NCBI RefSeq assembly: GCF_037975245.1
Contig: NC_092571.1
Span: 6,986,501 to 7,050,500, forward strand
Origin: Apostichopus japonicus
Taxonomy: Eukaryota; Echinodermata; Holothuroidea; Aspidochirotida; Stichopodidae
DNA: 64,000 bases
Direction: 5' to 3'
The notes under the pieces: generated by a model
What the model was told of the DNA's origin: nothing
Database searches by the model: none
What the model saw: only the letters and a program-made list of their open reading frames with translations
Position numbers and translations under genes: made by a program
In this document: in pieces, positions 6,501 through 63,931 of the stretch
Layout of the letters: each line of letters opens with the position of its first letter
Position numbering within the stretch: the stretch's first letter is position 1

Positions 6501-9500
6501 TTGTGCAAAGGTTAGGCCAAATTTTAGTTGAAAAGAAAGGAAACCAGTATATCCACCAATTTCCACCATCATTTGAGATCACACTGACTCATTTCCTTAT
6601 GAATTAAATTGGGTGTTGTTTGGACCTTTTATAGATGGCAAAAGAGACAAGGAAAATACAAGCTGAACGAGAAAGAAAGAACAAGAACGAGAAACTAAGG
6701 CCAAATGCCCACGCTCACGCTAAAGACATGCTAGAAAGATAAACGAGAACATATTTGTAATTAATCGCAATGAAGTCAAACACTTTGAAAGAAACTTCAA
6801 CGAAACAGAACTTAAACTAAAACCAAAAGGAAGAAAGAATATTGAGACCGAGTGAAGATGAGGCCGAATGAAATAAGAAAGCATATGCAGTAGATACGAA
6901 ATAGACGTAAAATACTTAAGAGAATATATATAAAGATGCTTCTATCTAACTGTTATTAATTTGGTTGTTGTTTATGACTATATTGCACATTGCAACTCAT
7001 ATACACTCTGTCCTTCTTTACGCCCTTGTTGACTGCTCTATGAAGTATCCATGGCAAAATTCACCATCAACAGGTTTTTTTTAATCTTTAAAATTCAAGT
7101 TATTACTATAAAACTGTGGGAAAATTTACAATTGATAGTGTGAAGGGATGCTGTTATATGGCAATAAGGTATGATAAAGTGCCTTTACCAGAATTATATA
7201 GTGATTTTAATTGCAAAAGTAAAACATAAGAGTATGAAGACAAGGGTGGGAAACATGTTTGCTGTGTACAGCAAAAGATTGAGTCTTTTCAAAAAACTTT
7301 AGTGTGTCACTTCAAACTACACCTATAACATCATACAGTACTGTAGTGCAAAATGCATTGGTCAAAAATAGGGTGAATAAATTTCAGAAAATTTCATCAA
7401 TGAAAAAAGCTATGCAGTTGGAACAATGTTTCATTTTAAGTGGTTCATTACTTTTATAGGGTCACTCTACATTATAAATTTATATCACAAAACAAGTAAC
7501 TTGCATCCACAAAAGCTATTTCAATGAAGGACCAATCAAAGAATGCGGATAGGAGGATGGCTAATGAAGCTTTTTCCAATATGTCTGGTTCGGATGAAAG
7601 AGTTCTAAGAATGATAAATATTGCATACAATGATGCTGCATCACTCAGATCCCCCGCTTGCTGTTCCTCCTCCCCTTCTTCTTTGTTTGGATCTTCTGGT
7701 CTAAGTAAGAAAACAATGTTACAAAAATATCAAGTTTGCAAAAACAAAATATCATTGATATTAATAACAAATATGATATGAAACAAATTGTATATACATA
7801 TTACTATGACTCCAGCTTATAATGAACTTTCACACAATCTGTTCTATTGGTCATGCATTCCTCAATGAATGGCAGCTCTCAAAATTCAGCAGATAGTTGT
7901 ACAGGTTGGGGCAATATCTGATGAGGAGGGTAATGGTCACTAGAAACACTGGGCCCCAGGATCAACTAGCAGATACCATCATACAAGAGCCACTTCACAC
8001 ACAGTTGGGCACCCTTTTTCGATGGCTACTCCATTATGAATATTCAGATATAAGTTATAGTAGAGATATCAAAGGTGTCGCCTTCTCGATAGCCATTTTG
8101 GGGCTAAAACTTAACAAGAAGATTTCCTTAATAATAAGGATGAACTTTGCAACCGGAAAGAAAGGACATCACGTGAGTTATCTAATGGCTGACCATATAA
8201 GATAATACAGTTAGCTTGAACACTGAAGGAGGAAGACCTGTTCAAGGTAGCAAGACAAGAAGAGTCCCTGAACAATAAGGCTGAAATTTGCAACTGGAAG
8301 GAAATAACATAACATTAGGGATCTAATGGCTGACCATCTAAGAAAAGATAGTTAACTGGAACACTGAAGGAGGAAGACCTGTTCAAGGAAGCAAGACAAG
8401 AAGAGTCCCTCAACAATAAGGATGAACTTTGCAAGTCTGGAAAGAAATGACATCACGTGAGTAATCTAATGGCTGACTATACAGTATAAGAATCTAATGC
8501 AAGAGAGTTGGCTTTAACACTGCAGGAGGGAGACCTGTTCAAGGTATCAAGACAAGAAACACTTCAAACTGGAGACAAGGCTGGAGCGGCAAAAGCAAAT
8601 ATCTACGATCACTCAGGACCAACATTTGGCACCTACTGCTAAATGGTGCCAACCTAGGTTATCTTCCATCTGGTAAAAGTGGATCTGTGAGTCATCACCA
8701 GAGATTGTTGCATCATAATTAAATGCCATTCACCTACTGGGGACAGGGAAAGTATGTATAGATTACTACCCATGGTCTCCCCTTGAAGTGTTCGAGGGGG
8801 GTTTTGATGGGCTTATTCCTGCCCCATTGGCCAAAATGAAAACCAAAAAGGCCCCCCATCTTAACCACCTCAAGTATTGCTTTGGCTATCTAGCAATGTA
8901 CCATTCAAAGTATCCAATATTTTCAAGGTTACTACAAGCAAATAAATTTTCCTCCATTCTAGGACCTTCTCCAAAAATTTAACTGCACAAGAATTCAAGG
9001 TCAAATTAACTCTGAGAACAGATCGATACTATCAAATAGCAGTTGCAGACATTGAGTAACTCCTTTGCATACCAAATTAAGTGAAAGCATATATGGAGTA
9101 CTATAGCATAGAATACTGCAACCTAACTGAATTCAATGGTCTGTTTACCCAACTTTTTATAACACATTTTCTTATTTATTGAAGTTTTCACTCACATAAA
9201 TTCTGGAGGTAACTGTTCATCTTCCTTATCCTGCTCTCTGCAGTTGCCACAATTATCTTCTTCCTTTGCCCCAGAAATGACCACACTCATTGCTGAATCA
9301 TTTGGCTTCAAACCATCTGTTACATTGGAGAGACCATTTTCCTCTTTTGTAGAGAAACAACATGAAAAGAAAATACAAAGTCAATATAAATATATTTAAC
9401 AAAAGACTTTAATTGCAAAGACTTTAAATATTATTAAATGGAAGGTTATAAACTTTGCCAAAAGCTATTTTTATAGTACATGAAAATATTGCTTGAAGTG

Positions 9501-24000: not shown

Positions 24001-27000
24001 TATGTACACATTCACTGTTTATATAATCCTTTGACAATTGAGAATCAGGTGGATTGTGACTTAATCTTAGAGGGCTTTATAGTAATATAAACTTATTTTA
24101 TTGCTACTTTTGTGGGTGCTGTGACTTTAGTAAACTAACCAGTTAAGACCATATCTAGTTATAATTGGAATCTCTACTGTATGTGATTGTGAGGTCATAA
24201 GTTCATCACCATGGGGGTTAATGTGAATCAGTCTATTGCTATACTTGGTACAAGATGAAACAAACTCAGGAATCAGGACCACATCTAATGTATGCTGTGG
24301 CCTAGGGCAATGAATTGCTTATATAACTGAGGCATTATTCCTGGAAGGGTAAGAAAGGCAGTCCTGAATAGTGCAAAGACTACCCTCACAACTTAGACAG
24401 ATGAGGGCACAGATAGAAAAACAAAAGTTGTTTAGGTATAGTGAAGTTTAAGGTAGCATACGCCCATTTAAAGCCCCATTGACTTACACACTAAATCACA
24501 AAAGTAATGTGGTCTCTAAGTCTAGATAGAAGTTTTCACTAGCTAAACGCACCCATCACCGGATAGCTGACAAGTTGGCCTTTCATGGCACCATCAATTT
24601 TCCATACCATGACCGCGCAGATTTGTTGCTATCCGAGCTGGAAGTTTCGTCACTTGTAAACAAACCTCTTCACTCAGTAGTAAACAATTTTCCTACGCTG
24701 CTCCTGGGAGGCCTAAAGGGGTCTAAAATTGCCTCAATTGACCCAATTTTCTCACCACATGTACTTCCATTCATGCTCTTTAACATGCAAGCCATAAAAA
24801 AATAGATCAGGATTGATAACAGGTCAAAAAAGATGTTCTCCTGCTGCTTTTTGGCACTTTTCCGGAAGGAGAACAATCGAGCGGATGGATATAGACTCTA
24901 ATAGGAGTATGCCACCTTGGGGCAATTCTGGTGCACCATGTGGAAAGCTTTGTATGGGAGGTCTGTGGAGATCATTGGGTCAGATTGTTGAACCTAACAT
25001 GTTAGTACCCTGGATAGGCCAACTAGAGTTCAAAGTCTTTCAGTTTCTCAATATGATACTACAAAATATATGTCTTTTCTTGTTACATTGTGAATTTTCT
25101 CAGACCTTGAGATTCAATGTGTACATTTGTTATGTTGAAATACCCCCAAAGGTACTGAGTTGGTGAAGTGGGAGAGGAATAGTTTATTTCTTACCACAGT
25201 ACCTGGTTTAAGTACAATAAGTAATACTTAACATGATGCTGCATGGTATGAAATTATGAATGGCTGTGCCAAATGCTGAAAAACCTAAAGAAAATGCCTG
25301 TAGATATACTTATATGTACAGTCTTGCAATGGACGATTTGAGCCAACGATAACAAATTTTATCTAGGAAACTTGTTATAGTAGGTCTACAGTACATCCAT
25401 GCATATTAGGTTTGACTACTTAAATATTTACTTCATCAAAAGTTACAAATATGGGAGATCAAATCAAATCAAACAAGAAAATATTGTAACCTTTTCTGTA
25501 AAACATCAGCTAAAGACTAATGTGAACCTGTTGGGAGGACAATTGTGCAAAGGAGTAAGAATTAAACTCAAGAATGTGATCAGAGTACTGTATGTGTAAA
25601 GCAGTTAGCAAGTTTTCATTGAAGGTATTCTACATTTTAAATTAAAGCCTATAGAAGCCGAGAAAACAAACATAATTACAAAATCACAAGAAATGTAAAA
25701 TTACAAGAAACAGTAGCATCAGGGTGGGGAAGGGGAGGGGATAGGGGACCGGACAGGGGCGAGTGTAAATCCAGTTGAATATGAGTGTGCCTGAAAACAG
25801 TACAGTGAGCAGTGAGCACTGTCGTTATGTACAGTAGTCAACATAATGCATTTGCTGCCAGTTTTGTGACAAACCTGAATAAGGTTATGATTTGTAGGTA
25901 GTTGTGTCATTGTGCTAAACTAACAACCATGACCCCTTCATACATGGACTAACAGCTCAATGTTACTGGTAATATCATCAATCAACAGTGTGGAATTTTT
26001 GAGGTTTGGAGCACGTCCATACAGTAGATCACCAAATGGTTGAAAAAGTGACAAGTATCTGTGAAATATTTTAAGGAACAAACTGAGAGTTTGCAAGACC
26101 TGCAAATTTAGTTGTTTGTTAATTTATTTTAGCTATGATACCTGTCCCTAAGGGCAAGTTGCAGTTTTGGCTGAGTATCTACAGTAATTCATCAAGATAG
26201 ATACCGATCTGTTTCAAGCTTTTGTTTCTCCACCTAAAGTTGCAACAACTTGTTAGATCTCAGTGAATCTGTCATGTTTGCCACTGTTTTTTATTAGCTG
26301 CTTCTGTTGTGTAGTGTCTTGTCTGTTTCTAATTTTAAGTTCTAACGGTGAATATTATCAGAATTAGCAATATTCCCACTCAGTCCCAGAAGACTTTGTT
26401 TGTTGCATAATAGGATAATGGATGAGCTTTACCTTTGATTATAATGTATTTAGAAATCTGATATATTTGCCTGGATTGTTTGTGGTGCTAATGACACTTT
26501 CATACTCTACTATAATTTGTTGTTTTGTCTTTGTGAAAAGATGGAGATACTTTCTTTGTGGCAGGCAGAGAATTAACAGCTGGCTTTAAAGGTTGCCAAT
26601 GGGAATCCATAAACTTGCAGCAAACAAGCTGAACTATACTAGTAATTTCTGTTCAGTCTGGTGAATGGAGCTGCTTTTACTGAAGTCAGTCAAGTGATAT
26701 GCTGATAGGTCGTATTATTAAAACTAGTCAATACAAACAGTTAACAGTGATTGTCAATGTATCCTTCCTATGTGGCATGTTCAGTCAAGTGATATAGGCT
26801 GATAGGTTGTACAGTATCATTAAAACTAGTCAATGAAAACACTTAACATGGATTGTCAATGTATCCTTCCTCTGTGGTGTGTTCAGTCAAGTGATATATG
26901 CTGATAGGTCGTATCATTAAAACTAGTCAATACAAACAATTAACATGGATTGTCAATGTATCCTTCCTCTGTGGTGTGTTCAGTCAAGTGATATAGGCTG

Positions 27001-30000
27001 ATAGGTTGTATCATTAAAACTAGTCAATACAAACAATTAACAGGGATTGTCAATGCATCCTTTCTCTGTGGTGTGTTCAGTCAAGTGATATAGGCTGATA
27101 CATCGTATCATTAAAACTAGTCAATACAAACAATTAACATGGATTGTCAATGTATCCTTTCTCTGTGGTGTGTTTAGTCAAGTGATATAGGCTGATAGGT
27201 TGTATCATTAAAACTAGTCAATAAAAACAGTTAACAGTGATTGTCAATGTATCCTTCCTATGTGGCGTGTTCAGTCAAGTGATATAGGCTGATAGGTTGT
27301 ACAGTATCATTAAAACTAGTCAATAAAAACACTTAACATGGATTGTCAATGTATCCTTTCTCTGTGGTGTGTTTAGTCAAGTGATATAGGCTGATAGGTT
27401 GTATCATTAAAACTAGTCAATACAAACAATTAACAGTGATTGTCAATGTATCCTTCCTCTGTGGTGTGTTCAGTCAAGTGATATAGGCTGATAGGTTGTA
27501 TCATTAAAACTAGTCAATACAAACAATTAACATGGATTGTCAATGTATCCTTTCTCTGTGGTGTGTTCAGTCAAGTGATATAGGCTGATAGGTTGTATCA
27601 TTAAAACTAGTCAATACAAACAATTAACATGGATTGTCAATGTATCCTTTCTCTGTGGTGTGTTCAGTCAAGTGATATAGGCTGATAGGTTGTATCATTA
27701 AAACTAGTCAATACAAACAATTAACATGGATTGTCAATGTATCCTTTCTCTGTGGTGTGTTCAGTCAAGTGATATAGGCTGATACATCGTATCATTAAAA
27801 CTAGTCAATACAAACAATTAACATGGATTGTCAATGTATCCTTTCTCTGTGGTGTGTTCAGTCAAGTGATATAGGCTGATACATCGTATCATTAAAACTA
27901 GTCAATACAAACAATTAACATGGATTGTCAATGTATCCTTCCTCTGTGGTGTGTTCAGTCAAGTGATATAGGCTGATAGGTTGTATCATTAAAACTAGTC
28001 AATAAAAACAATTAACAGTGATTGTCAATGTATCCTTCCTATGTGGCATGTTCAGTCAAGTGATATAGGCTGATAGGTTGTACAGTATCATTAAAACTAG
28101 TCAATAAAAACACTTAACATGGATTGTCAATGTATCCTTTCTCTGTGGTGTGTTCGGTCAAGTGATATACAGTAGGCTGATAGGTTGTATCATTAAAACT
28201 AGTCAATAAAAACAGTTAACAGTGATTGTCAATGTATCCTTCCTATGTGGCGTGTTCAGTCAAGTGATATAGGCTGATAGGTTGTATCATTAAAACTAGT
28301 CAATAAAAACAATTAACAGTGATTGTCAATGTATCCTTCCTATGTGGCATGTTCAGTCAAGTGATATAGGCTGATAGGTTGTACAGTATCATTAAAACTA
28401 GTCAATAAAAACACTTAACATGGATTGTCAATGTATCCTTTCTCTGTGGTGTGTTCGGTCAAGTGATATAAGCTGATAGGTTGTATTATTAAAACTAGTC
28501 AATAAAAACAGTTAACAGTGATTGTCAATGTATCCTTCCTATGTGGCGTGTTCAGTCAAGTGATATAGGCTGATAGGTTGTATCATTAAAACTAGTCAAT
28601 AAAAACAGTTAACAGTGATTGTCAATGTATCCTTCCTATGTGGCGTGTTCAGTCAAGTGATATAGGCTGATAGGTTGTATCATTAAAACTAGTCAATAAA
28701 AACAATTAACAGTGATTGTCAATGTATCCTTCCTATGTGGCATGTTCAGTCAAGTGATATAGGCTGATAGGTTGTACAGTATCATTAAAACTAGTCAATA
28801 AAAACACTTAACATGGATTGTCAATGTATCCTTTCTCTGTGGTGTGTTCGGTCAAGTGATATAAGCTGATAGGTTGTATTATTAAAACTAGTCAATACAA
28901 AGAGTTAACAGTGATTGTCAATGTATCCTTCCTCTGTGGTGTGTTCGGTCAAGGGATAAATATAGGCTGATAGGTCGTATTATTAAAACTAGTCAATACA
29001 AACAGTTAACAGGGATTGTCAATGCATCCTTCCCCTGGTGTGTTCGGTCAAGTGAAAAAAATAGGCTGATAGGTCGTATCATTAAAACTAGTCAATACAA
29101 ACAGTTAACAGGGATTGTCAATGCATCCTTCCTCTGTGGTGGTGTGTCCAGTCAAGTGCATCTCGCTTCATTACACAATTCTTCTCCTTTCAGGAAACCA
29201 CCTACAGAAACTTTTACAAGATCGAATTCAAGCCCCACGACTTCAAGCGGTTTCTTCTCAAAGACGTTGGTTTCTCCACTTGTGAAGTAATTGGGACACC
29301 AGTGAACCAGTCAAAAGGTATCAAATTACTGTTGTAAATGGTTTTGTCTTTATAGGGCAGAGGAGGCGGGTTTAATCCCTCAATTGGAGCTTTGAATGTT
29401 TATATCTCTTTCTTTAATCTGACCTTCTTTGTGACTGGCAAGAGTCCAGTTTGGTAAATGTTAATACTACATCGAATTGTAGTATGTTGTCCTAGGTTGT
29501 TGTTCAAAAATATTGCCAAAAGAATACAGGCCGGTATTTGGATGTCGTCCTCAAATGAGTTGGGGCAGTTATTAAAAAAACATCTTGAATTTTCAAAATC
29601 TACACGGAAGATCTAATAGACGTAGTACTTCAAACTTTGCTGAATGCTGATAAAATGTACTGATCATTTTCATGGTACACACACCAGTGTCAGCTGAATG
29701 ATGAGAGCTGATCTTCACAAGCAAAATAGGTAAAGGCTTGTAAGGAGTGAAAGGGTGAAACAAACCAGCGCTCAGTTCATCCATGCTAAATGCTAACTCT
29801 CACGTACCTCTATTATCCAAGAGTTGACTCTATGTTCAATCGACCTAACATCAGTCACCGCACAGCATTAACCTTACTATCTACTATCAAACTTTTAAGT
29901 TATGCTTTGTTGAAATTTGTGACATTGCACAATCCTTTGTTGTAGCAAGGTTACAGACTGGAGGATAAATGTTGGGGAAATCTTCATTCTCAGGGCATTG

Positions 30001-31497: not shown

Positions 31498-31910
31498 TGT
31501 GTTACGGTTCCCTTAACCGAACAGTGATAGTGTGTTACAGTCTCCCGAACAGTGATAGTGTGTTACAGTCCCCCGAACAGTGATAGTGTGTAACAGTCCC
31601 CCGAACAGTGATAGTGTGTTACAGTCTCCCAAACAGTGATAGTGTGTTACAGTCCCCCGAACAGTGATAGTGTGTAACAGTCCCCCGAACAGTGATAGTG
31701 TGTTACGGTCCCCTTAACCGAACAGTGATAGTGTGTTACGGTCCCCTTAACCGAACAGTGATAGCGTGTTACGGTGCCCTTAACCGAACAGTGATAGCGT
31801 GTTACGGTTCCCTTAACCGAACAGTGATAGCATGCTACGGTCCCCTTAACCGAACAGTGAAAGTGTGTTACGGTCCCCTTAACCAAACAGTGGTCCCCTT
31901 TGGTGGCTGC
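31498..31910 (+). repeat. 28/33-bp minisatellite
   Basis: About 13 units of gtgttacrgtcccc..gaacagtgata. The proximal units are ~28 bp and the distal ones 33 bp; the latter are multiples of three, so both strands stay open for 70-90 codons. No splice sites or start context support translation. Confidence 0.9.
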
Positions 31911-47259: not shown

Positions 47260-48700
47260 CAGGGGCGGGATTTGAGTTGTTAAAGTGGGGGGGGGGGGGC
47301 AAACCTGCCCGCAAGACTATCTCAGCGGAGCGCCACCATCGGTTGGCGCGGAGCGTACAAGAAATGTCTTGGCTTTACAAACCCTCCAGTTGGCCGGAAA
47401 CGGTACTTCCCTAGTGCTCTAAGCTGCATGTACCCATCCTTGAAATATGGATCTCATGTCTGCAATTGTATCTAGATAGTTAATTTTCGTTTAAAAATTT
47501 GAAGAGGATTGAAAGTAGAACATATGGTCAGATGGTGATGTACAACTTTTGTTATACGTCACTATCTAAGCGGAGCGCCATCATCGGTTGGCAAGGATCG
47601 TCGAAATTTTCGATGAAAGGTACCCTTAGATCGGTTAAATTAACACCCATATAGGCTTTAAATTGCATCTAAACAATTAATGAACGGGTGCAAATTTAGG
47701 GAGGACGGATAGAAGAACTTATATGGTGATGTACAACTGAAGCTTATACGTACACGTCACTATTAAGGCGGTGCACCACCATCAGTTGGCGTGGCGCGTC
47801 GAAATTTAAGCAAAAAGGAAATCCTAGATCAGCAAAAATGACACCTCTGGTAACAATAAATCGCATCTAGACAGTTCTTTCCCCCTAAAATTATTAGTAT
47901 ATTGTGTATTGGACCGATCAAGAAAATGTTCAGCACCCACTTCGAAATTCTCCCCGCGGTCCCCACTTCTTGGAGCACTTGGTAAATATTGGGGGCTGAA
48001 CATACCTTTACCCCCCCCCCCACACTTTTTCATGGGGGATAAGCCCCTCAAGTCCACCGGTTCCGTCGCCACTGAAGTCGAGGCGGGGTGACTTTTTCGA
48101 TTTTACAATGCGACTAGGTGCAACATGGAGCAATATTTACGGCTAATTTCATAGTACTGGCTGAGATGCATCATTCCAGGATTTCGAGCAGTAAAGAAAT
48201 TGCATCGGCATTGCCATTGCATATTGTTGAATGACACGGGGGGGGGGGGGGTGTCATGTGTCAGTGTATTGAATTTAATTATTGATATACCCAATATGCA
48301 AATCTGGATTTCGTAAATCGTTTCTCTGGATTTAGTTATTCAACGCATTCAGTAGAGCAGCAACGTTGAAAATCAATTCCTGAAGCTAGCACTGTAGCAC
48401 ATGTCGCGGATTCATCACATGCATAATTGAATCGCTAGTGTGTAAGCTCCAGGATTCGTAACCTGTGCTGCCAACCATGTGCTAGTTCCAGTTATTCTGC
48501 ATGCTACATGTTAAACACATATTCGACTTAGATTCGAAACAAATAGGCCTATTTGATAGAGCTGTTGTGGGGGAATAATTTCGATTAGGGTTGTGAACAT
48601 TTGTGTGCAAAAACGACAAAAAAGTGAACTAAGGTCTGGGAAAAAGTGGGGGGGGGGGGGGGGGCAAATGCCCCCTCTTTCCCCCGTAATCCCGCCCATG
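47260..48700. mobile_element. 1.44-kb hAT-type non-autonomous element
   Basis: Ends CAGGGGCGGGATT and, inverted, CATGGGCGGGATT; perfect 8-bp duplication CCTGTGTG (47252-47259, 48701-48708). The left part carries three related ~200-245-bp segments with gcggagcgccaccatcggtt-like cores (47313, 47565, 47760). Long G/C runs lie at 47287, 48010, 48239 and 48650. No transposase. Confidence 0.85.
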
Positions 48701-48708
48701 CCTGTGTG

Positions 48709-52217: not shown

Positions 52218-55200
52218 CTATGATAAAGAAATGAGCCAAACCTCAAATTACTGGACGAAAATAATGTTGCCTTCTTCTGAGAAAAACAATAAACAAAAAC
52301 AGGAATCCTTTGTGTGACTTTAATTTTGTTTTCCTACAACACTCTATTTACTTAAGTTTAAGAGAATCTTCATTTTGTTTTTTCTTCAAAGTTGGTTTGT
52401 TTTTTTAGTGATAAAAACATGAAAAAATATACTAATTTATGTCTTCTCTGTTCATTTCTTTATGTTCTTTCTTGATCAATTTCATATTCAAAATAATTAA
52501 CTGTCGACCCACAAATTTATCAAAGCTCATTCTAGTTCATACATAGTCATTAATCAAAAGCTTGTTTGAATATACAAAGCTTGGTAGAGAATTTAAGATC
52601 AATCTGTCGCAATTATGGTTTGATTAAACTTGACCAATTTTGAGCAAATACCAGATAAGCATTAAGCTGTATTTTATGTTGAATTTACCATATGTTGACA
52701 CCATAATTGACATTTAATGCAAAAATAAGTAAACAACATACGCTGCTGTAGTATACAAATCTGGCACCAGTTAAGATAAAAGAAGGCAAAGTTTAAAAGT
52801 GGAACATTGAAAAAAATCATTAAAATTTGTGGGTCTTGGATGAATAAGTTAATAACATGTGAAACTAGAAGTAAGCATAATGATGAAACCAAACAGATGT
52901 CAAAATTAGAATAAGAAGTATCCTAGTACCCAACTAATATTTGTTAATATTCCATAGATTGGTCAGAAATGACTAAAAGTAACAACTGTTTGTAAAATAC
53001 AGCAATAAATCAACTCCTAACATCGGTTCTAGCAACATGTCCATCGCAACTCACCTTAAACTTGTTCAAAGCATTTCCTAGGCCTTCTACAGTCTCTATA
53101 TCTAAATGGTTGGTAGGTTCGTCAAGGATAAAGAAATTTGGACTGTGGAGAGATAAAGAATGTCGGTCATTATTGACGAGACTAGAATGTCTACTTGTAT
53201 TAATGAAGGCAGCTGTCTGAACTTACAAAGAATTTCTACATCAGAGGAACAAAACACACATTCTGAGGGTAAAGGCTGGGGAAGGGCATGAGAGTAAATT
53301 ATAGTCCCATTATGCTTGTCTTCTTGCCATTCTGAAGAATCTTCTTGCCAAAAGTTTGGCTCATTCCCAGAGATAGAGCAAATGAAAACTTCAAACGCTT
53401 TGAATACATGATATTAAAAACCAATGCAGCTACAGTGAACAAACTTCGTTGGACACTATATTGCAATGGAAGAGGCTTCTTTGTAGAACTCGCGAAGAAG
53501 CCTCATTGGCTTATCAAAGCCCCAAGCTGACCGAAGTCAGTCTCTTAGATTCATATTTAACGTCCACGATGATGAATTGTCAACAACTCTGTAACTGGAC
53601 GACATACATTAATCTTGGAGTGACTCAAACTCCAAGCATAGGACATGAAGCATGGGGAGGGGTCCGAGGGGAGGTGGGAATAATAGAGAGAACATGAATT
53701 ATTACGACTTCTAATGAGATGAATCAAGGGCCGACACAATACCTACTATCAATCTAAAACTCTATTCTAATAATCCTATCTAATAGTCGGGTGTTACCTG
53801 CACCTCTCATGAAATATAAGTACAGAGAAGTGACCTTCATCAGTGGTTTACAGTAACATCCTGGCACTCTCCTGCACCATCCATGTCAAGTTGAAGACTT
53901 TCATATTTTAAAGGCGAAGACAGTTGGAAGGTGTTTTGTTCTTGATATATAGTTTCACAATGGCTGATAGAGGGCGATAACTCAGTGTTTACAGACTATT
54001 CATGAGTGTTGATATTGTTTTTACAAAACTCTGAAAAGTTTCACATACTTTGCCATGCACATAATTGCAAAAGCGACACGACTCTTTTGTCCTCCGGACA
54101 AGCTGGACACTGCTCTTGTAGCTAGTTCACCTGTTACACCGAACCCACCCAGTATACTTCTGTATTCCTCAACATGTTTGCCTGCAAGAGAAGCAGAGAA
54201 CAAGAAACACCTAGTGGTTTGCTCATTAGTTCTTATTAATGGATAAATTGATATCAGGAGAAAACATGAATGCAGATACCAAGCTAAAGACTGCCATAGC
54301 ATTCTTGTAAAGTGGTGAAGCATACATACACACACACATATATACATGTTTGTATTACATTCTAACCGAGGACCCCATTGTATTTTCCATTGTTCAAATC
54401 CACGTACCCTAACCTTAACAATACCCCATACAATAGAATTCCTCTGGGACGTGGTGATTCTTTAGAAATCACAACCGAGGACCTGGAATTCTTTTGTTCA
54501 AGTCCTCGGGCAGATAAAAAAACAAATGCACACACACACACACACGCATATATATATATATACCCTAATGTAATTGACAAGCAAAACTGTCTGAAATTAT
54601 CTTGAAGATAAACATGAATGCTACCAGAGAAAGGAAAAATTAAAATTTGAAATAATTCCTGTTGTGACTCACCAGGATACCTAGCAGCACACACTTCAAT
54701 AGCATTCTTGTTTAGGTCCATCTGTTCTACGTGGTGTTGACTGAAATAACCTATTCTGAGGTTACGATGGATGTGACATATACCACTGGTCGGACTTAGC
54801 TGGCTCTGAATAAGCTTCAATAGAGTTGTTTTACCAGAACCATTATCTCCAACCTAGAAAAAAACAAAACAAAACAAAACGTGGCAGCATAATGTTGCAT
54901 CACTTATTGTTGACAGGATACAGTTAAAATTGAACTATCCAGGGCTTTATACCCAGATGGTGGTTTATGTGGATGAGAAATCTAAGCAATCCGTATTGTA
55001 TGCCTATGTATAGTCAATACAGTCCAGTACTACCATTAACAAAATACATTTACTTGTCATTACTATAACATCAAAGCAGGCTATTTAATGTTTCTCAAAT
55101 AATGAAGCTATGACTGTAAGCTCATTATTGTAATGTCACAATGTACTGTCATGAAACACAGGCACAGAGGGCATTGGACGGTTTGTAAACTACAAAATCA

Positions 55201-58200
55201 GCCACAGCGGCCAATGGACAGTCTATTAACTACTAAATCAGCCACAGCGGCCACTGGACAGTCTATTAACTACTAAATCAGCCACAGCGGCACTGGACAG
55301 TCTATTAACTAGTAAATCAGCCACAGCGGCCACTGGACAGTCTATTAACTACTAAATCAGCCACAGCGGCACTGGACAGTCTATTAGCTACTAAATCAGC
55401 CACAGCGGCCACTGGACAGTCTATTAACTACTAAATCAGCCACAGCGGCCACTGGACAGTCTATTAACTAGTAAATCAGCCACAGCGGCCACTGGACAGT
55501 CTATTAACTAGTAAATCAGGTACAGAGGGCACTGGATAGTCTATTAACTACTAAATCAGCCACAGCGGCACTGGACAGTCTATTAACTACTAAATCAGCC
55601 ACAGCGGCCACTGGACAGTCTATTAACTACTAAATCAGCCACAGCGGCACTGGACAGTCTATTAGCTACTAAATCAGCCACAGCGGCCACTGGACAGTCT
55701 ATTAACGACTAAATCAGCCACAGCGGCCACTGGACAGTCTATTAACTAGTAAATCAGCCACAGCGGCCACTGGACAGTCTATTAACTACTAAATCAGCCA
55801 CAGCGGCACTGGACAGTCTATTAGCTACTAAATCAGCCACAGCGGCCACTGGACAGTCTATTAACTACTAAATCAGCCACAGCGGCCACTGGACAGTCTA
55901 TTAACTAGTAAATCAGCCACAGCGGCCACTGGACAGTCTATTAACTAGTAAATCAGGTACAGAGGGCACTGGATAGTCTATTAACTAGTAAATCAGCCAC
56001 AGCAGCCACTGGACAGTCTATTAACTACTAAATCAGCCACAGCGGCACTGGACAGTCTATTAGCTACTAAATTAGCCACAGCGGCCACTGGACAGTCTAT
56101 TAACGACTAAATCAGCCACAGCGGCCACTGGACAGTCTATTAACGACTAAATCAGCCACTTGATCAACTGTATTTTGTGGTTGTGTTACAAGCACATGCA
56201 AGTTCTTGAACTACAGTATGTGCTACACACTCAATACTCTACCTAGATTGTTTCATACATCGCCAGTCATTTCTAAGAATGCACTTACTACACTCATTCT
56301 ATTGTGTGTATGTTTTTATGTATATCTCTCAGATCTATGCAAAATGGTTCTAGGAAACTTTTCCTATGGTATCCTCATGCAAACACACTTGAAAATAAAC
56401 TGTATTGATAGTTAACGTTGTTGCACTAATATATACAATATGTGTAAAACCTTGAAAAACTGTTACTTTGAAAAAAACAAATATCAAAATTAATATGCAA
56501 TTTTCACAACTTCATGTATCAGATGAATAATTTTCACCTACTTTGCATAAGACCTGGGCGGGAATTTCTCGTCATTGACAGCTAAGAACTAATTTACCAC
56601 CGTTTTAAATATTGTACTCACATTACACATAAGACTGAAGTGTTTACTTGTGTGGATCTTGTAAAGAATGGTTATGTAAGGTAAAGCTCATCAGGTTGTC
56701 CCACAAATAGATCACACTTCAAGAGGCATGTTAATACCATTTTCAAAGTATCGTCCAATGGTCAGAAATGCAAGTTTCATGTGCAATGTTTGGAAACAGG
56801 TTGGAAGATCTTGTACAGCAGGGGTTCCCTAACTAGGGTGCATGAACCCCCAGGGGGTGCATGAGTCCATCTCAGGGGGTTTGTGAGACGTTTCTGAAAG
56901 TCAAAACTAGAATAGTTTTTGTTGAACTAAAATCTGACAGATCATATAATTAAGTAATGTACAAAAGTCATACCTATCGACAAACTCTTTCCGCGCTCCA
57001 TACGCATATGTTGCCATAGTAGTACCGTACCGTGCATGTACCATGCATATATAAATATGTTATGCGTATTATAGTATAAAAATGACTCAGATCGTATCTC
57101 GAAAGTTGGGGGTTCGTGCACAACTCTGACACCCACAGGGGGTTTGTGGGGGAAAAAGTTAGGGAAACCCTGTTGTACATGCTCCAGGACATTTGAAATC
57201 AAATAGTAAGGAAAAGCAAGAGGTTCTCTGTAACTTGCTAAGCTTTGTGAATGCTCTAATTATCAAGACACTGAGATTCTGGTTTTATCAGTGTAAAGGT
57301 ACTCACTATACAGATTCTTGATTCTAGGTTTGCCGAGAGATCTACACTAGTGAAGATCGTCTTTCCCGGAGAGTAGTGGAAACCGACCTCATCCAACTGA
57401 ATAATCGGGGGAGAGAGTTTGTCGACATCTGCAGGGAACCTGAAATGAAACCAAAGGTATAAAACCCAAGATATGTATTTAGTCCTTCTGTAATGTACAC
57501 AAAATTCTCAATAAAAGATTATGACATATGTTGTCAAATCTTTTTGACAAGAAAGGATAACAAGAAAAAAGAAAGCAAAAAAAATAAAAAAAATCAGTAT
57601 TTGCATAAGATTGAAATTGATTAAATTAAGTATATGTTGGAAAAAAAACAGTTTTTCCAAGAAAACAAGACTGAAAATATCGATAATATCACCACCAAAA
57701 AACAGTAATAGCAAAGCCACTATTGTGACCATTCTTCGTGAATAATTTACCAGGAAGTGTGGGACAGAGGAAGGAAACAGCAATGTCTGACTAAACATAA
57801 AAACTGTCAACAGTTGTTTTGGTATTATCATGTACCTGTATCAAGAAATATTTGATAATCACATCAAAGGTTTTATTTAGTGAAACACAATGTAAGGTAA
57901 AAGGGGAAGGAAACTACTCACCTAAACGTCACATCTGGTTCTCGCACAACTGGTTTAAGTTCTGGCCTGCAAAAGATTTGACATTTCTTTGTAATAGTTT
58001 ATTCCTGTTTTCCAAATATTAATCACCTTACAATGCTAAGCTGCCACATATGCCATGTGGAAAACACAAACAAGGCTTATATAGCTTCTATTCCTCAGTT
58101 CTATTGACTTTTTATTTTTTTTGTATTATTGTCATCTTTAACGAAGGTAGTCCTTCTCAGTGCAGAAGCGCTGCTTTCCAGAGGAGCCCTCAATTAAGTG

Positions 58201-61200
58201 CTCTAGATGCAGTTTGTTCACTCTCTAGCACACCACATTGAGCTTCCAACATGGTCTTCAATACTCACTGCACGTCTTTATATCTCATTAGGTGGTTGCT
58301 TTAATTAATTCATGGTTCTAACATGCTACAGTACGAGGATTGCTATGACTGCAATCAGAACAGTGCTTGTACCTTGTCACAAATGGCAAATAACACAACT
58401 AATAAGAATACATACACTTCAATTAGCATTAAAAGGCCATCTCAACTTCTTCTTCTTTACATATGTCTTGTTTAAATGTTAAATGTTGTCACTGGCTGCA
58501 TATTACACTTAAGATGACAGACACAGCCCACTGGACAATTGGTCATCAATGCCTGTTTTTGTTTGAACGGATTATTATCGACAAATCCACGTCTAAAACA
58601 ATAGAAATACGGCAAAACATTTTCTACTCACAGTTTCTCCAATTGTTTCAGTTTGCTTTGTACCAAGGAAGCCCGTTTTGCGTTGTAACGGAACTTATTT
58701 ATGAAAACCTGCAACGAAAGGCAGCGTTAATTACCAACGCATCAATTTGTTGTAACAACAAAGAATAACAAAAACATGCTTGTGTTTCTGAAACTTTGGC
58801 ATTAAACTATCAAAATATAGGTTTGCATCATTTATATACTTTTACATATCACACCATTTGGGAATGAATAAAATAATAAAACTTTGCAAAAAGAAAGAAA
58901 CAGTCTTTTAAACAAATTTAACTTCTCAGATTCCTAAGACTGAATGACATGCTAGACAAACATGATAGCCATGAAAGAAGTCCAATGCAAAACTTCATCA
59001 CAACTTGATAATACCACGAACACCTCCCCCAACCCCCTGCCCCCACCCCCAAAACACTCAGTTCTGCTATCTGGCAATAATGGGATAATGTAAGTTAGTC
59101 ATTCCGAAAATTGATCTCTCCATATTTCAATTGTGTATTACAATCGTCCTTCCTAGAATTACTTGCCAACAAGGAAACCTTACAGTTTAATTTTATTTCT
59201 GTCTGATTCGATATTCTGAGCAAGCCATGCAATATTCCCACATAATTTGATACCCAGTAGTCTCAGTAAGTGGTTACAACAATTTGGTTAAAGTAAACCA
59301 GCCAATCAATACTCATTTAGTTCAATAAAGCAATCTTCCAACATTTAATGTGATGTGTTATATTTTGCTCCTTTGTAAAGTACTATTTTATGGTTACTGG
59401 TGTAATTTTGGGTGGACTTAAATGACAGATTATGTTTAACGATTTAACAAAGATGTCAATACCATTATGTAATAAATTCGTGGCAAACTTTCATCTGTAT
59501 TTCAGCAATGTACCTACCATAGCATGAGCCCTGAATTGCATCTGTATTTCAGCAAGGTACCTACCATAGCATGAGCCCTGAATTGCATCTGTATTTCAGC
59601 AATGTACCTACCATAGCATGAGCCCTGAATTGCATCTGTATTTCAGCAAGGTACCTACCATAGCATGAGCCCTGAATTGCATCTGTATTTCAGCAAGGTA
59701 CCTACCATAGAATGAGCCCTGAATTGCAGCTGTATTTCAGCAAGGTACCCACCATAGCATGAGCCCTGAATTGCATCTGTATTTCAGCAATGTACCTACC
59801 ATAGCATGAGCCCTGAATTGCATCTGTATTTCAGCAATGTACCTACCATAGCATGAGCCCTGAATTGCATCTGTATTTCAGCAAGGTACCTACCATAGCA
59901 TGAGCCCTGAATTGCATCTGTATTTCAATGTACCTACCATAGCATGAGGCCTGATTTGCATCTGTATTTCAGCAATGTACCTACCATAGCATGAGCTCTG
60001 AATTGCATCTGTATTTCAGCAGGGTACCTACCATAGCATGAGCCCTGAATTGCATCTGTATTTCAGCAAGGTACCTAGTACCTACCATAGCATGAGCCCT
60101 GAATTGCATCTGTATGTCAGCAATTTACCTACCATAGCATGAGCTCTGATTTGCATCTGTATTTCAGCAATGTACCTACCATAGCATGAGCCCTGAATTG
60201 CATCTGTATTTCAGCTAGGTACCTACCATAGCATGAGCCCTGAATTGCATCTGTATTTCAGCAAGGTACCTACCATAGCATGAGCCCTGAATTGCATCTG
60301 TATTTCAGCAAGGTACCTACCATAGCATGAGCCCTGAATTGCATTTGTATTTCAGCAAGGTACCTACCATAGCATGAGCCCTGAATTGCATATGTATTTC
60401 AGCAAGGTACCTACCATAGCATGAGCCCTGAATTGCATCTGTATTTCAGCAATGTACCTACCATAGCATGAGCCCTGAATTGCATCTGTATTTCAGCAAT
60501 GTACCTACCATAGCATGAGCCCTGAATTGCATCTGTATTTCAGCAATGTACCTACCATAGCATGAGCCCTGAATTGCATCTGTATTTCAGCAATGTACTT
60601 ACCATAGCATGAGCCCTGAATTGCATCTGTATTTCAGCAATGTACCTACCATAGCATGAGCCCTGAATTGCATCTGTATTTCAGCAATGTACCTACCATA
60701 GCATGAGCCCTGAATTGCATCTGGGCTTCGTATTCTCTGATCTGGTTCTTCATCTTCTCTTCCTTGGTTTGTGTAAACTTGTCGTAATTGCCTTTGTATG
60801 CATCGATTCGCTGCGAGTGCAGATATATGATGTCAGAGGCGACCTCTCGTAAGAACTGTTTGTCGTGAGATACTACGAGGAGAGTTGTCGGCCATTCCTG
60901 ACGGTAAAGAGAGCGAGAGAGAGAACCACTGTCACTGCTTGCAATATAAGAGATCTAATCATCCAGAACCTCTTCAAAATGTCAGCAACCCTGGCAATGT
61001 ATCTACCCACTTCTTTTGATAATCTCTTGCTTGCAAGAATACAACATGTAGTTTAAATATAATTAACTTAGTTCATCGCTTTCATGGCATTCCTCATCCG
61101 ATCACACATTCCAAATATTCTTGTCAGGATCCCAAAGCTATATCAGAACACTTGAGACACTATTTCTGGTAGTTTTTACAAAATCTACCAAGAGTACGAT

Positions 61201-63931
61201 TGACAAATTGATCTACTAAGACACACTCCTAGAATTTTTCCTAACATATACGGTCTATAATATCTCTGCTTAGTCAATAAACTCTTGCTAATATTCACAG
61301 CATCAAATTTGTACTTAATATTACTTTGCAACTCAGCTAATGCATTTTAGCAACTCATATTTACCTTTGCTTTGTGAGCTGTTATTCAATAATGTCAATC
61401 TCATTACTTGATTTTAAGCCTGTGTAATCAACCATTGTGATGACGATGAGTTTAACAGATTCGCAGAAATTGTGCTTCTGGTGTATAGATTACTTTATGA
61501 TCAAATTCTGAGATGATGATGATGTTTTACCACAAACTGAGCAGTGTGCAAAAACACTCATTGGTGTTTGGGAGATGAAGAGCAATTAATCACACGATTT
61601 TATATTATATCACTGGGAATGAATGCTTTACCCATAAAACAAAAGTCTTGGAACAGACTTTTAAGACTAATATGAATATTTCAACCTAAGCTGGAGTCAC
61701 CAAACTGACATATCAAGGATAAGCATAATTTCAAATTGGGAAGAAATTTTCCTGACTCTTGAGACTAGTGAATTCACACAATGCTATCAATAATAAACGT
61801 TTGCTTAATATTTCAAAGTAAATGATTTATTTGCTCTTATTAGCAAGCTTCCATTTGAAAATTTGGGTTTCAATAATTTTGTCTGCTTGTCTCTGAAGAA
61901 GATCCTGCCAGTGGCAAAATATTTTGCCATTCAAGTTTTATGGACAAAAAACATTTCTAATGTCTATATGAAAACTACTGTCTGTAGATGTAACAAACAA
62001 AAAAGAAAAGGCTTTAATACTGTGCAAAATTTAATATTAACTTGCTCCTGGAACATAGCCAATCAAAATCACAGATTGAAAGACTTACCTGTAAGTAATC
62101 TTCGAGCCATAAGATAGCTTTCATATCCAACATGTTCGTAGGTTCATCTAGAAGCAACAGATCTGGTTTTGAGAACAGTGCTCTTGCTAATGCTATCCTC
62201 ATTCTCCATCCACCAGAAAATTTCCTAGGAAGAAAAAATTGTTTTTGTTTTGTTTCATAATATAGTCAAAAACAGAAATATGGTTTTGAAACAAGAATCA
62301 TTAACAATCATATGCCCCAAAGAGAGTAGCAACAGTGAGAATAATATCATGATACTTTGAATAATTACCGGTCATCTAAGTCATTGCAAAATTGTGGCAG
62401 ACTTTTCAGTACCATTTAAAGACTTAACAAAGCCCAAATACTCTGGAAAGAAGTCTTGTTTATGGTACAAACTAATGATTGACAATAGAAGAACAAATCA
62501 ACCCTCAATATTGTGCCACACACTTCTCGCATCCTTCGGTCATCCTCTGAAACTTCTGCTCTCACAACTTGTAGATCAAAACAAGCGAGTCGGGGAGCAA
62601 GCTTTTAGCCATGTCGCACCTTTGTTGTGGAACAAGTTACCATCAGAAATACGAAGCCTTACCTCTATCAGCACTTTCAAATCATCGTTAAAGACTTTTA
62701 CTTCAAACAAACCTATGGTTAAGTGTATTAAATTGTACTTTGTATTTGTTTTGTTAAGCGCATTGAACCCTGGGATTTTGCGCTATATAAGCACCGGTGT
62801 AATCATAATAATAATAATAAAATCAACTCTCAATATTGTGCCACACATAATGTACTGTATAAAAACTACTATAAGGAATATAACTGAGGTCTATGTTTTT
62901 GAATAATTTATTCATTTCCTTTATGTCCTATGAGGTCAAATTTCAAGAGCAAAGTTGAACTGATATTAAACTGTGTAACAGTCAAAACAGTCAATATGCA
63001 TAAGGTGCTGTAACAACATGTAGATCTTTTTATGTACACTTTCACTGTTATCAAAATGAACACTCTTTCACCATTATCTAACAAAACTTACAAAATAAAA
63101 AGTGGAAATAGATTTGAATTTATCATGACAAGAAAATGAAATGGATTGCTTTAACTTTGACTTACTTTGTTTCTTGTACCTGCATTTCAGAAGTGAAACC
63201 TAGACCAGACAATATCATGGCAGCTCTATTTAGACAAATAAAAGAAGACAGAAAAAAGATTACTTTATGAAATTTACAGATCCAGTATATGAAGAACACA
63301 CAATGTGACTCCATATAATGTCAAAGGGCTGTTAACTTATAACTACTGCACACAAATCTAATAGAAATATTCAATTAATGTCATAAATACAAAGATTTCG
63401 CAAAGGACTGTAGAGTTGATTTGGGAGGAACATTTAACACAGATGTCCGTTCATGTCAAAGATGTCATATGACCTCATGGACAAACTGAACATATCAAAT
63501 ACAGAGAAACTCAAAAACAAAACAATGGTAGGATGTATAAAATATCAAAAATGATATTTTTCACTCGGTCAAGGAACCAGTGTAAAAGCAAATGACATAT
63601 AATGGCATGGTTCACATGTACTGTATTACTGAATGTGGTGGGTACAACAACAGCTCACTTAGATATAATATTAAATACATTATAATAATAACAATGATAA
63701 CCACACCATAGTAGAATGAACAACCATCTACTGAGACCAGCTATCTATACACCTAAATAGTTAATGTTAAAATCAGCATACAATGTACTACAGCATTCTT
63801 TAGGAATATCATTACAGAGTCAATCTTTCTTTTCAACGTACCTTGCAGGGGCTTTGTCGGCTTCTATTGCTTCTAACTGTGTGTAGACTTGGCTAAGCCT
63901 GGAGGATAACTTGGGATCAGATGATCCAGGA
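52065..63931 (-). CDS. ABCF3: ABCF3, ATP-binding cassette subfamily F member 3 (gene span, 11 exons, 5' partial)
   Basis: Exons in transcript order: 63931-63842, 63225-63166, 62224-62089, 60897-60697, 58708-58632, 57966-57922, 57439-57307, 54853-54673, 54181-54049, 53142-53055 and 52217-52065. They join in phase to 431 residues plus TAA (human ABCF3 is ~709 aa). The first Walker A lies beyond 64000. Visible: first ABC signature FSGGWRMR and Walker [10 protein letters not shown]; switch His VSHD; the inter-domain arm ([26 protein letters not shown]); second Walker [11 protein letters not shown]-loop region YFSQHHVEQ; signature LSGGQKSRV; Walker [13 protein letters not shown]; second VSHD; end [12 protein letters not shown] proteins are soluble twin-ATPases without membrane domains that act on ribosomes or translation; ABCF3 is reported to have antiviral and growth roles in mammals. 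Introns contain two large minisatellites, a LINE and a hAT element. Confidence 0.95.
52218..54048 (-). other. ABCF3 introns around exon j
   Basis: AT-rich intronic sequence on either side of exon j (53055-53142); no repeats recognised. Confidence 0.5.
53055..53142 (-). CDS. ABCF3: ABCF3 exon j (ABC2 Walker B)
   Basis: Acceptor ctccacag|T, donor TTTAAG|gtgagt. [20 protein letters not shown] is the Walker B and D-loop. Confidence 0.96.
54049..54181 (-). CDS. ABCF3: ABCF3 exon i (ABC2 signature)
   Basis: Acceptor ctcttgcag|GC, donor GCAAA|gtatgt. Contains [15 protein letters not shown] and [14 protein letters not shown], the C-loop of domain 2. Confidence 0.95.
54673..54853 (-). CDS. ABCF3: ABCF3 exon h (ABC2 Walker A and Q-loop)
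   Basis: Acceptor tttttctag|GTT, donor TATCCTG|gtgagt. Begins [15 protein letters not shown] (Walker A) and includes [20 protein letters not shown], a near-diagnostic ABCF3 block. Confidence 0.96.
55150..56160 (+). repeat. 40-bp minisatellite, ~25 copies, in an ABCF3 intron
   Basis: Unit ctggacagtctattaactac plus taaatcagccacagcggcca; a 39-bp variant lacks one C. The variant aggtacagagggcactggat recurs at ~55517 and ~55955, so ~11 units form a higher-order period of about 436 bp. Confidence 0.95.
56819..57172. mobile_element. hAT-type non-autonomous element 4
   Basis: 354 bp with ends CAGGGGTTCCCTAAC and, inverted, CAGGGTTTCCCTAAC. The 8-bp duplication TTGTACAG / TTGTACAT (56811-56818, 57173-57180) has one mismatch. 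It ends ~135 bp from ABCF3 exon g. Confidence 0.88.
57307..57439 (-). CDS. ABCF3: ABCF3 exon g (start of ABC2)
   Basis: Acceptor catttcag|GTT, donor TGTATA|gtgagt. Encodes [20 protein letters not shown], then [12 protein letters not shown] and ANLESRICI: the A-loop and first strands of the second ATPase domain. Confidence 0.94.
57922..57966 (-). CDS. ABCF3: ABCF3 exon f (45-nt exon)
   Basis: Acceptor cttttgcag|GCC, donor TTTAG|gtgagt; encodes [15 protein letters not shown] second AG (gccag) lies 5 nt downstream, but only the first keeps the frame and the conserved LPELKP. Confidence 0.9.
58632..58708 (-). CDS. ABCF3: ABCF3 exon e
   Basis: Acceptor cgttgcag|GTT, donor AAACT|gtgagt. [20 protein letters not shown] is the second half of the helical arm between the two ATPase domains. 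Confidence 0.95.
59484..60720 (-). repeat. 47-bp minisatellite made of the ABCF3 exon d / intron junction, 26 copies
   Basis: Read on the gene strand, each unit is ATGCAATTCAGGGCTCATG + CTATG (24 nt, the last eight codons of exon d) followed by a 23-nt piece starting gtaggtac and ending atacag. The copy nearest the exon is the exon's own end. Nearly all copies keep GT after CTATG and the AG before ATGC. One copy (donor at 60602) has the consensus gtaagt. Confidence 0.95.
60697..60897 (-). CDS. ABCF3: ABCF3 exon d (switch His; 3' end copied in a minisatellite)
   Basis: Acceptor tttaccgtcag|GAA; 67 whole codons from [16 protein letters not shown] through the arm helix [14 protein letters not shown] to MQFRAHAM, ending GCTATG|gtaggt at 60697. 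The human counterpart has the same length up to the next exon, so the first donor is the ancestral one. The last 24 nt of the exon and the first 23 nt of the intron are repeated 26 times downstream (toward lower coordinates). Confidence 0.94.
60898..62088 (-). other. ABCF3 intron between exons c and d
   Basis: 1.2 kb of AT-rich intron; no recognised repeats or RNA genes. Confidence 0.55.
62089..62224 (-). CDS. ABCF3: ABCF3 exon c (ABC1 signature and Walker B)
   Basis: Acceptor tttcttcctag|G, donor TTACAG|gtaagt. Contains [16 protein letters not shown] and [13 protein letters not shown], the C-loop and Walker B of the first ATPase domain. Confidence 0.96.
62523..62819 (+). mobile_element. 5'-truncated LINE (CR1/Jockey-like) 3' end
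   Basis: Encodes the C-terminus typical of CR1/L2/Jockey-type reverse transcriptases, [19 protein letters not shown] then [18 protein letters not shown]. Next come a 3' tail with gcgctatataagcaccggt and a (AAT)n terminus. A ~28-bp target duplication with one mismatch flanks it (62495-62522 and 62820-62847). It lies antisense in an ABCF3 intron. Confidence 0.88.
63166..63225 (-). CDS. ABCF3: ABCF3 exon b
   Basis: Acceptor ..tctaaatag|A, donor ACAAA|gtaagt. Encodes [20 protein letters not shown]; the ILSGLGF segment is characteristic of ABCF domain 1. Confidence 0.92.
63842..63931 (-). CDS. ABCF3: ABCF3 exon a (first in window)
   Basis: Acceptor ctctccctag|T, donor GCAAG|gtacgt. Encodes [20 protein letters not shown] then AIEADKAPA, matching the family's [14 protein letters not shown] linker before the first ABC signature. 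Confidence 0.9.

Follow-up and report, generated by a model that had tools for sequence, protein, structure and literature searches.

In the sea cucumber Apostichopus japonicus, the junction between an exon and the following intron of a gene for an ABC-F ATPase has been amplified into a tandem array of 26 units, each of which carries a 5′ splice site. We consider it likely that this array is for the most part a passive, length-variable minisatellite, which was born at the exon–intron junction, and that its decoy donors are rarely used. The window, that is, the whole stretch of 64 000 nucleotides that was analysed, is C11:6986501-7050500 of a 671.6-Mb assembly with 35 contigs. Positions are those of the window unless they are given in Mb or with the contig name C11.

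The array and its gene

The gene with the array lies on the minus strand. Peptides from neighbouring exons match PF00005 (ABC_tran) and PF12848 (ABC_tran_Xtn) in Pfam, in the order expected for the ABC-F family, an ABC_tran domain and then an ABC_tran_Xtn linker. The top PDB matches for the exon peptides are YheS, ABCF1, and ARB1, which are all ABC-F proteins. The gene may be ABCF3, the name given in the preliminary description; the comparisons that were run do not separate it from other ABC-F members. The features of the gene around the array are as follows.

60697-60897, minus strand: exon d, which has 67 codons and ends in phase 0, with a Pfam match to ABC_tran_Xtn positions 3-43
58709-60696, minus strand: intron d, 1988 nt here and 1213 nt in a second copy of the region, with the array at its start
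58631-58708, minus strand: the next exon, 26 codons compared, beginning VFINKFRYN, with 11 pyrimidines of 14 in its acceptor
59492-60723, minus strand: array of the 47-bp junction unit, with 26 units that bear a donor, followed by a terminal CAGATG

TRF gives the array a period of 47, with 26.1 copies and 95% matches. Its units lie head to tail, as in a minisatellite or VNTR, and minisatellite units are generally about 10-100 bp. Each unit of about 47 bp combines the terminal 24 nt of exon d with the initial 23 nt of the intron, and the array extends from the exon edge at 60697 into intron d. A fuzzy scan located 26 blocks of the 24-nt sequence, of which the first is the end of exon d itself (60720-60697) and the last is at 59541-59518. 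Thus, by homology, the authentic donor of coding exon d sits inside the array, as the donor of its first block. The 24-nt sequence is exact in 22 of the 26 blocks, and 23 of them encode MQFRAHAM in frame. Two units are off length, at 54 and 44 bp. All 26 blocks are followed by GT, in the form of GTAGGT in 24 cases and GTAAGT and GTGGGT in one case each, while AG precedes 24 of the 26.

The preliminary description of this DNA had presented the array as a 26-fold amplification of an exon–intron junction, in which every unit joins the MQFRAHAM codons to the intron start and bears a donor, and TRF and the block scan largely bear this out. It had also placed an AG before each 24-nt block, which is true for all but two of them. 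The GTAAGT copy that it had noted two units away from the exon edge was located at donor 60602-60597.

Donor choice and the reading frame

The sites that matter for the choice of donor are the following.

60695-60696, minus strand: the exon-edge donor GT (GTAGGT), which gives the family-conserved protein
60597-60602, minus strand: decoy donor GTAAGT, the third donor of the array and the nearest to the donor consensus, by approximate weights
60646-60648, minus strand: TAG, within reach when reading continues beyond donor 2, placed by residue position and letters

Residues 26-66 of exon d match ABC_tran_Xtn positions 3-43, and residues 2-26 of the next exon match positions 46-70. The residues at the junction therefore correspond to positions 44 and 45, and there is no space for a further block. 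When exon d was joined to the next exon via the first donor, the domain score was 73.3 bits; with one additional MQFRAHAM it was 60.8 bits, and with two it was 60.4 bits, so that a single added block of 8 residues costs 12.5 bits. The alignment with YheS, over residues 2-137, is ungapped across the junction. Use of donor 2 adds 47 nt and shifts the frame, and a stop is then met inside the next exon. Joining donors 3-8 and the last of the 26 donors to the next exon gave products that all carry the TAG at 60648-60646, and, as the sequence reads, every donor past the second would include it. Among the donors tried, it is the first alone whose junction with the next exon preserves the conserved reading frame. 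The earlier claims on the frame are thus correct, with one refinement: the product of donor 2 stops in the next exon, and the TAG is carried by the products of donors 3-8 and the last donor.

The blocks might also be viewed as a bank of micro-exons, with single 24-nt blocks included in the mRNA and MQFRAHAM repeats added to the linker helix. The AG before nearly all of the blocks and the in-frame coding of most of them would allow this. However, the unit acceptor has only 7 pyrimidines of 14, whereas the real acceptors, eight of which were checked in this gene, have 11-13. The loss of domain score with an extra block and the lack of an insertion at the junction in two YheS alignments also argue against it, and we regard inclusion of the blocks as highly improbable.

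Some observations on the donors speak against the predicted use of the first one. The GTAAGT decoy scores 6.63 and the real donor 4.09, with approximate weights. When the RNA was folded under two settings, the accessibility of the first donor ranked 8th and 2nd among the 26 donors of the long copy and 1st among the 9 of the short one, and the best decoy was 0.8 to 2.5 times as accessible as the first donor. We have therefore rejected masking of the decoys by RNA structure, since it would give the first donor no more than a small advantage in exposure. SRSF1 is able to favour the intron-proximal of two competing donors (PMC5585400). Such a preference would predict use of the decoys, and the choice of the first donor is thus not a foregone conclusion.

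It may be asked if the array is a control of splicing that depends on copy number. More units would capture more U1 or regulators, and longer arrays would make productive splicing less frequent or cause the next exon to be skipped more often, thereby setting the dose of the ABC-F protein. The retention of GT in all 26 donors fits with this proposal, as does the finding that the extended products reach a stop. However, at the array's own rate of change, the probability that all 52 GT bases remain intact is about 0.29, and it is 0.24 when both copies are included. Since chance suffices for the retention of GT, selection on the decoy GT was rejected. Furthermore, donor accessibility shows no clear pattern. 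We consider this control unlikely.

With regard to selection on the decoys, the distribution of changes within the array was also compared. In the long array, exon-type positions have 7 changes in 624 and intron-type positions have 19 in 598 (Fisher P 0.017), with 11 of the 19 intron-type changes being one shared variant. The short array leans in the opposite direction, with 3 in 216 exon-type and 1 in 207 intron-type positions. No polarity of variation was found along either array (Spearman 0.16, P 0.43, for the long array and 0.43, P 0.25, for the short array).

The second copy and the origin of the array

A genome search with the array gave at least 18 matches, at two places, its own locus and C11:10427749-10428177. 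The second place is 3.4 Mb away on the same contig, and there the array has 9 units at the same exon edge, with both of its edges identical in place. The preliminary description had proposed that an array located away from the exon would speak against an origin at the junction; the one other copy, in the same genome, has the array at the same exon edge. With 26 units at one copy of the locus and 9 at the other, be the copies alleles or paralogues, the array shows the variation in copy number that is characteristic of a VNTR. The coding sequences of the two copies differ by 16 synonymous and 0 nonsynonymous changes in 287 codons, compared in 6 of the 8 exons listed, the other two being outside the stretch of the second copy used. 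Both copies therefore look functional despite the unequal lengths of their arrays. The identity between the copies is 98% in exon d and 91% of aligned bases in intron d outside the array.

The similarity of the two copies extends well beyond the gene. The window, compared over 1-9 kb and about 35-64 kb, with 9-35 kb compared for two tandem arrays only, matches the second copy in collinear pieces of 87-99% identity, with gaps. Seven places were probed between 5.5 and 9.0 Mb, and for six of them a partner was found at a distance of 3.2-3.7 Mb, namely, for the window and the places at 5.50, 6.60, 7.40, 8.20, and 9.00 Mb, and two of these six match at 100% identity (rounded). The 7.40 and 9.00 Mb probes are less clean. 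The former has about 1 kb outside a dispersed repeat, which matches three places near 11 Mb, and the latter is locally repeated and also matches near 5.34 Mb, its own place being absent among the matches listed. The 6.80 Mb probe, which is dominated by a repeat family, had no partner among the best candidates, and a direct comparison of this piece with the stretch guessed as its partner gave no match. About 3 Mb of the contig seems to appear twice, as C11 5.5-8.2 Mb and 8.7-11.9 Mb, with the order kept and 87 to 100% identity where probed. The doubled region mixes identical stretches with others that are about 10% different. We think that it probably represents both haplotypes of one region, placed end to end in the assembly; the alternative is a true segmental duplication with gene conversion.

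This apparent doubling shows that the assembly is not clean here, and the array, or its length, could be an assembly error. On the other hand, there are distinct variants among the units, and two diverged copies have both array edges in common. An error of this kind is accordingly very hard to credit.

Some other differences between the copies were seen. The second copy lacks an element of about 370 bp that is present at 5405-5787 and is found on many contigs at about 92-95% identity; its flanking matches are separated there by about 20 bp, an insertion difference. About 300 bp at 62523-62819 have no counterpart in the second copy, in which the matches on either side overlap by 28 bp; a reading frame on the plus strand of this segment may resemble the end of a LINE reverse transcriptase. 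The stretch 47260-48706 in the window belongs to a dispersed repeat family, with best candidates on 18 contigs, mostly at 85-95% identity.

The junction array is not the only one to differ in length between the copies. The gene contains another minisatellite.

55159-56159, no strand assigned: second minisatellite of the ABC-F gene, 40-bp unit, in the intron between exons 57304-57435 and 54674-54853

This 40-bp array, the sole other array placed in a known intron, serves as a comparison case away from an exon edge, and its copy number is 25.2 in the window and 2.7 in the second copy. The 97-101 bp array at 26686-29158 has 23.8 copies here and 5.9 there, and the 33-bp array at 31498-31892 has 12.9 and 9.9. 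An 88-bp array hardly differs (3.0 and 2.7 copies), and the array at 40-151 is apparently longer in the second copy, with several shifted matches. For the 141-bp array at 8114-8558, TRF gave no row in the second-copy stretch examined. Since other arrays of the window also vary in length, expansion is not peculiar to this splice junction, and this variation is a further argument against a control of splicing by unit number.

The ends of the array suggest how it began. When the array is collapsed to one unit, the hexamer CAGATG is found at its exon-side end and recurs in the intron after 47 bp.

60718-60723, minus strand: CAGATG at the exon-side end of the array, coding, identified in the collapsed-array comparison
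59492-59497, minus strand: CAGATG at the end of the array on the intron side, which comes to lie 47 bp from the exon hexamer when the array is collapsed

Among 200 000 random pairs of breakpoints drawn 20-149 bp apart in the window, 0.39% had an identity of at least 6 bp. The 6-bp CAGATG at both ends thus suggests tandem duplication between short repeats. Together with the second array at the same edge, it supports the earlier proposal that the exon–intron junction was duplicated in tandem.

The proposed course of events is as follows. A tandem duplication between the two CAGATG hexamers, one coding and one intronic, would have given rise to the array, and subsequent expansion and contraction would have led to the 26 and 9 units of the two copies. 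In most transcripts, the spliceosome would take the first donor, and the rest of the array would leave with the intron. An occasional slip to donor 2 would give a frameshifted mRNA, which is probably degraded.

Comparison with known systems

Judged by titles and the beginnings of abstracts, the literature searched showed nothing closer to the array than the human ABCA7 VNTR, repeats in human paralogues, PRDM7, and potato RdRp, apart from a repeat in TERT, and phage records gave no match. The ABCA7 VNTR appears to be the closest precedent, although ABCA7 and the ABC-F gene belong to different ABC subfamilies. This VNTR of intron 18 consists of 25-bp units, includes the donor of exon 18, and ranges from about 12 to 427 units (PMC5954066). 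It resembles our array in that it starts at the exon edge and contains the donor, with 23.7 units in the reference compared with 26 here, in that its length varies, and in that splicing from the next donor causes a frameshift (PMC5954066). It differs in its unit, which begins with GT as its first two bases and for which coding bases are not described, whereas the 47-bp unit here has 24 coding nucleotides. Moreover, a length effect on splicing has been shown for ABCA7, while the ABC-F array is known from sequence alone.

According to the same study, ABCA7 has two frameshifting isoforms, at 14 ± 6 and 2 ± 1%, neither of which depends on length, and, going by the order of the text, the latter is the retention of one unit (PMC5954066). 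By contrast, skipping of exon 19 rises with length, up to 45 ± 10% in one brain region, and expression drops as the VNTR lengthens (PMC5954066). The altered forms together exceed the canonical form in 90% of samples from one brain region (PMC5954066). This precedent supports the rare use of the next donor, and it also indicates that arrays of this type are not necessarily harmless.

The skipping of the following exon and the loss of expression with VNTR length in ABCA7 (PMC5954066) are an argument for a control of splicing by unit number. Another is the 38-bp repeat in intron 6 of human TERT, which reportedly needs at least 9 copies for the splicing outcome (PMC3948165). However, the retention of one unit in ABCA7 is constant across lengths (PMC5954066). 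In a bolder form of this idea, the array would be a natural titration of donor competition that is under selection. The number of units would set the loss of transcripts through decoys or skipping of the next exon, giving a heritable and rapidly mutable control of ABC-F dose, with 26 and 9 units as two settings. We consider this bolder form quite improbable.

A study of human paralogues, which reported 27 intron modifications, describes tandem repeats at exon–intron boundaries with repeat numbers that differ between gene copies, as they do here (PMC2812944). Those cases rest on transcripts with altered gene structure (PMC2812944), whereas no altered structure is evident for the ABC-F gene. PRDM7 has an internal duplication of 89 nt, which is likewise in tandem and carries a cryptic splice site, and which is stated to have arisen 8 times in the chimpanzee genome (PMC2082429). 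Unlike the present case, the PRDM7 segment is duplicated within an exon and may create a GC-AG intron (PMC2082429). In the potato RdRp gene, a segment bearing a splice site was also duplicated in tandem, leading to an intron gain according to the Rogers model (PMC4974935). The duplications in both PRDM7 (PMC2082429) and potato RdRp (PMC4974935) are linked to new introns, and intron gain by tandem duplication was reported by Hellsten in 2011 (cited in PMC4974935).

The duplication of segments that bear splice sites is a described route to intron gain (PMC4974935, PMC2812944, PMC2891723), and a pair of units in our array could be turning into a new intron. In contrast to the Rogers model, the piece duplicated here carries a donor along with a weak AG, and a new intron is not evident. 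In addition, the array is contained in an intron of which the junction is already a part. The introns between adjacent blocks would be 23 nt, which is too short, and their acceptors are weak. Longer introns are possible by skipping units, but the acceptor is then equally weak. We find an intron gain under way very unlikely. Thus, the earlier suggestion of micro-exons or of intron gain in progress is not borne out, given the acceptors with 7 of 14 pyrimidines, the 23-nt unit introns, and the lower domain score.

Compared with all of these systems, the ABC-F array is distinctive in the coding half of its unit and in its occurrence at two lengths in one assembly. Within the preferred reading, that of a mostly passive minisatellite, it suggests a route for the birth of a minisatellite that spans a boundary, from a pair of short direct repeats, of which one is coding and the other intronic. 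The array is also a natural test of the choice made by the spliceosome, which has one donor to find among 26 near-identical tandem ones, and the 9-unit copy provides an internal comparison. In ABCA7, splicing slips to the next donor at a low rate, yet skipping of the exon that follows increases in long arrays (PMC5954066). Together with ABCA7, the ABC-F array would show the limits within which such donor-bearing arrays are tolerated.
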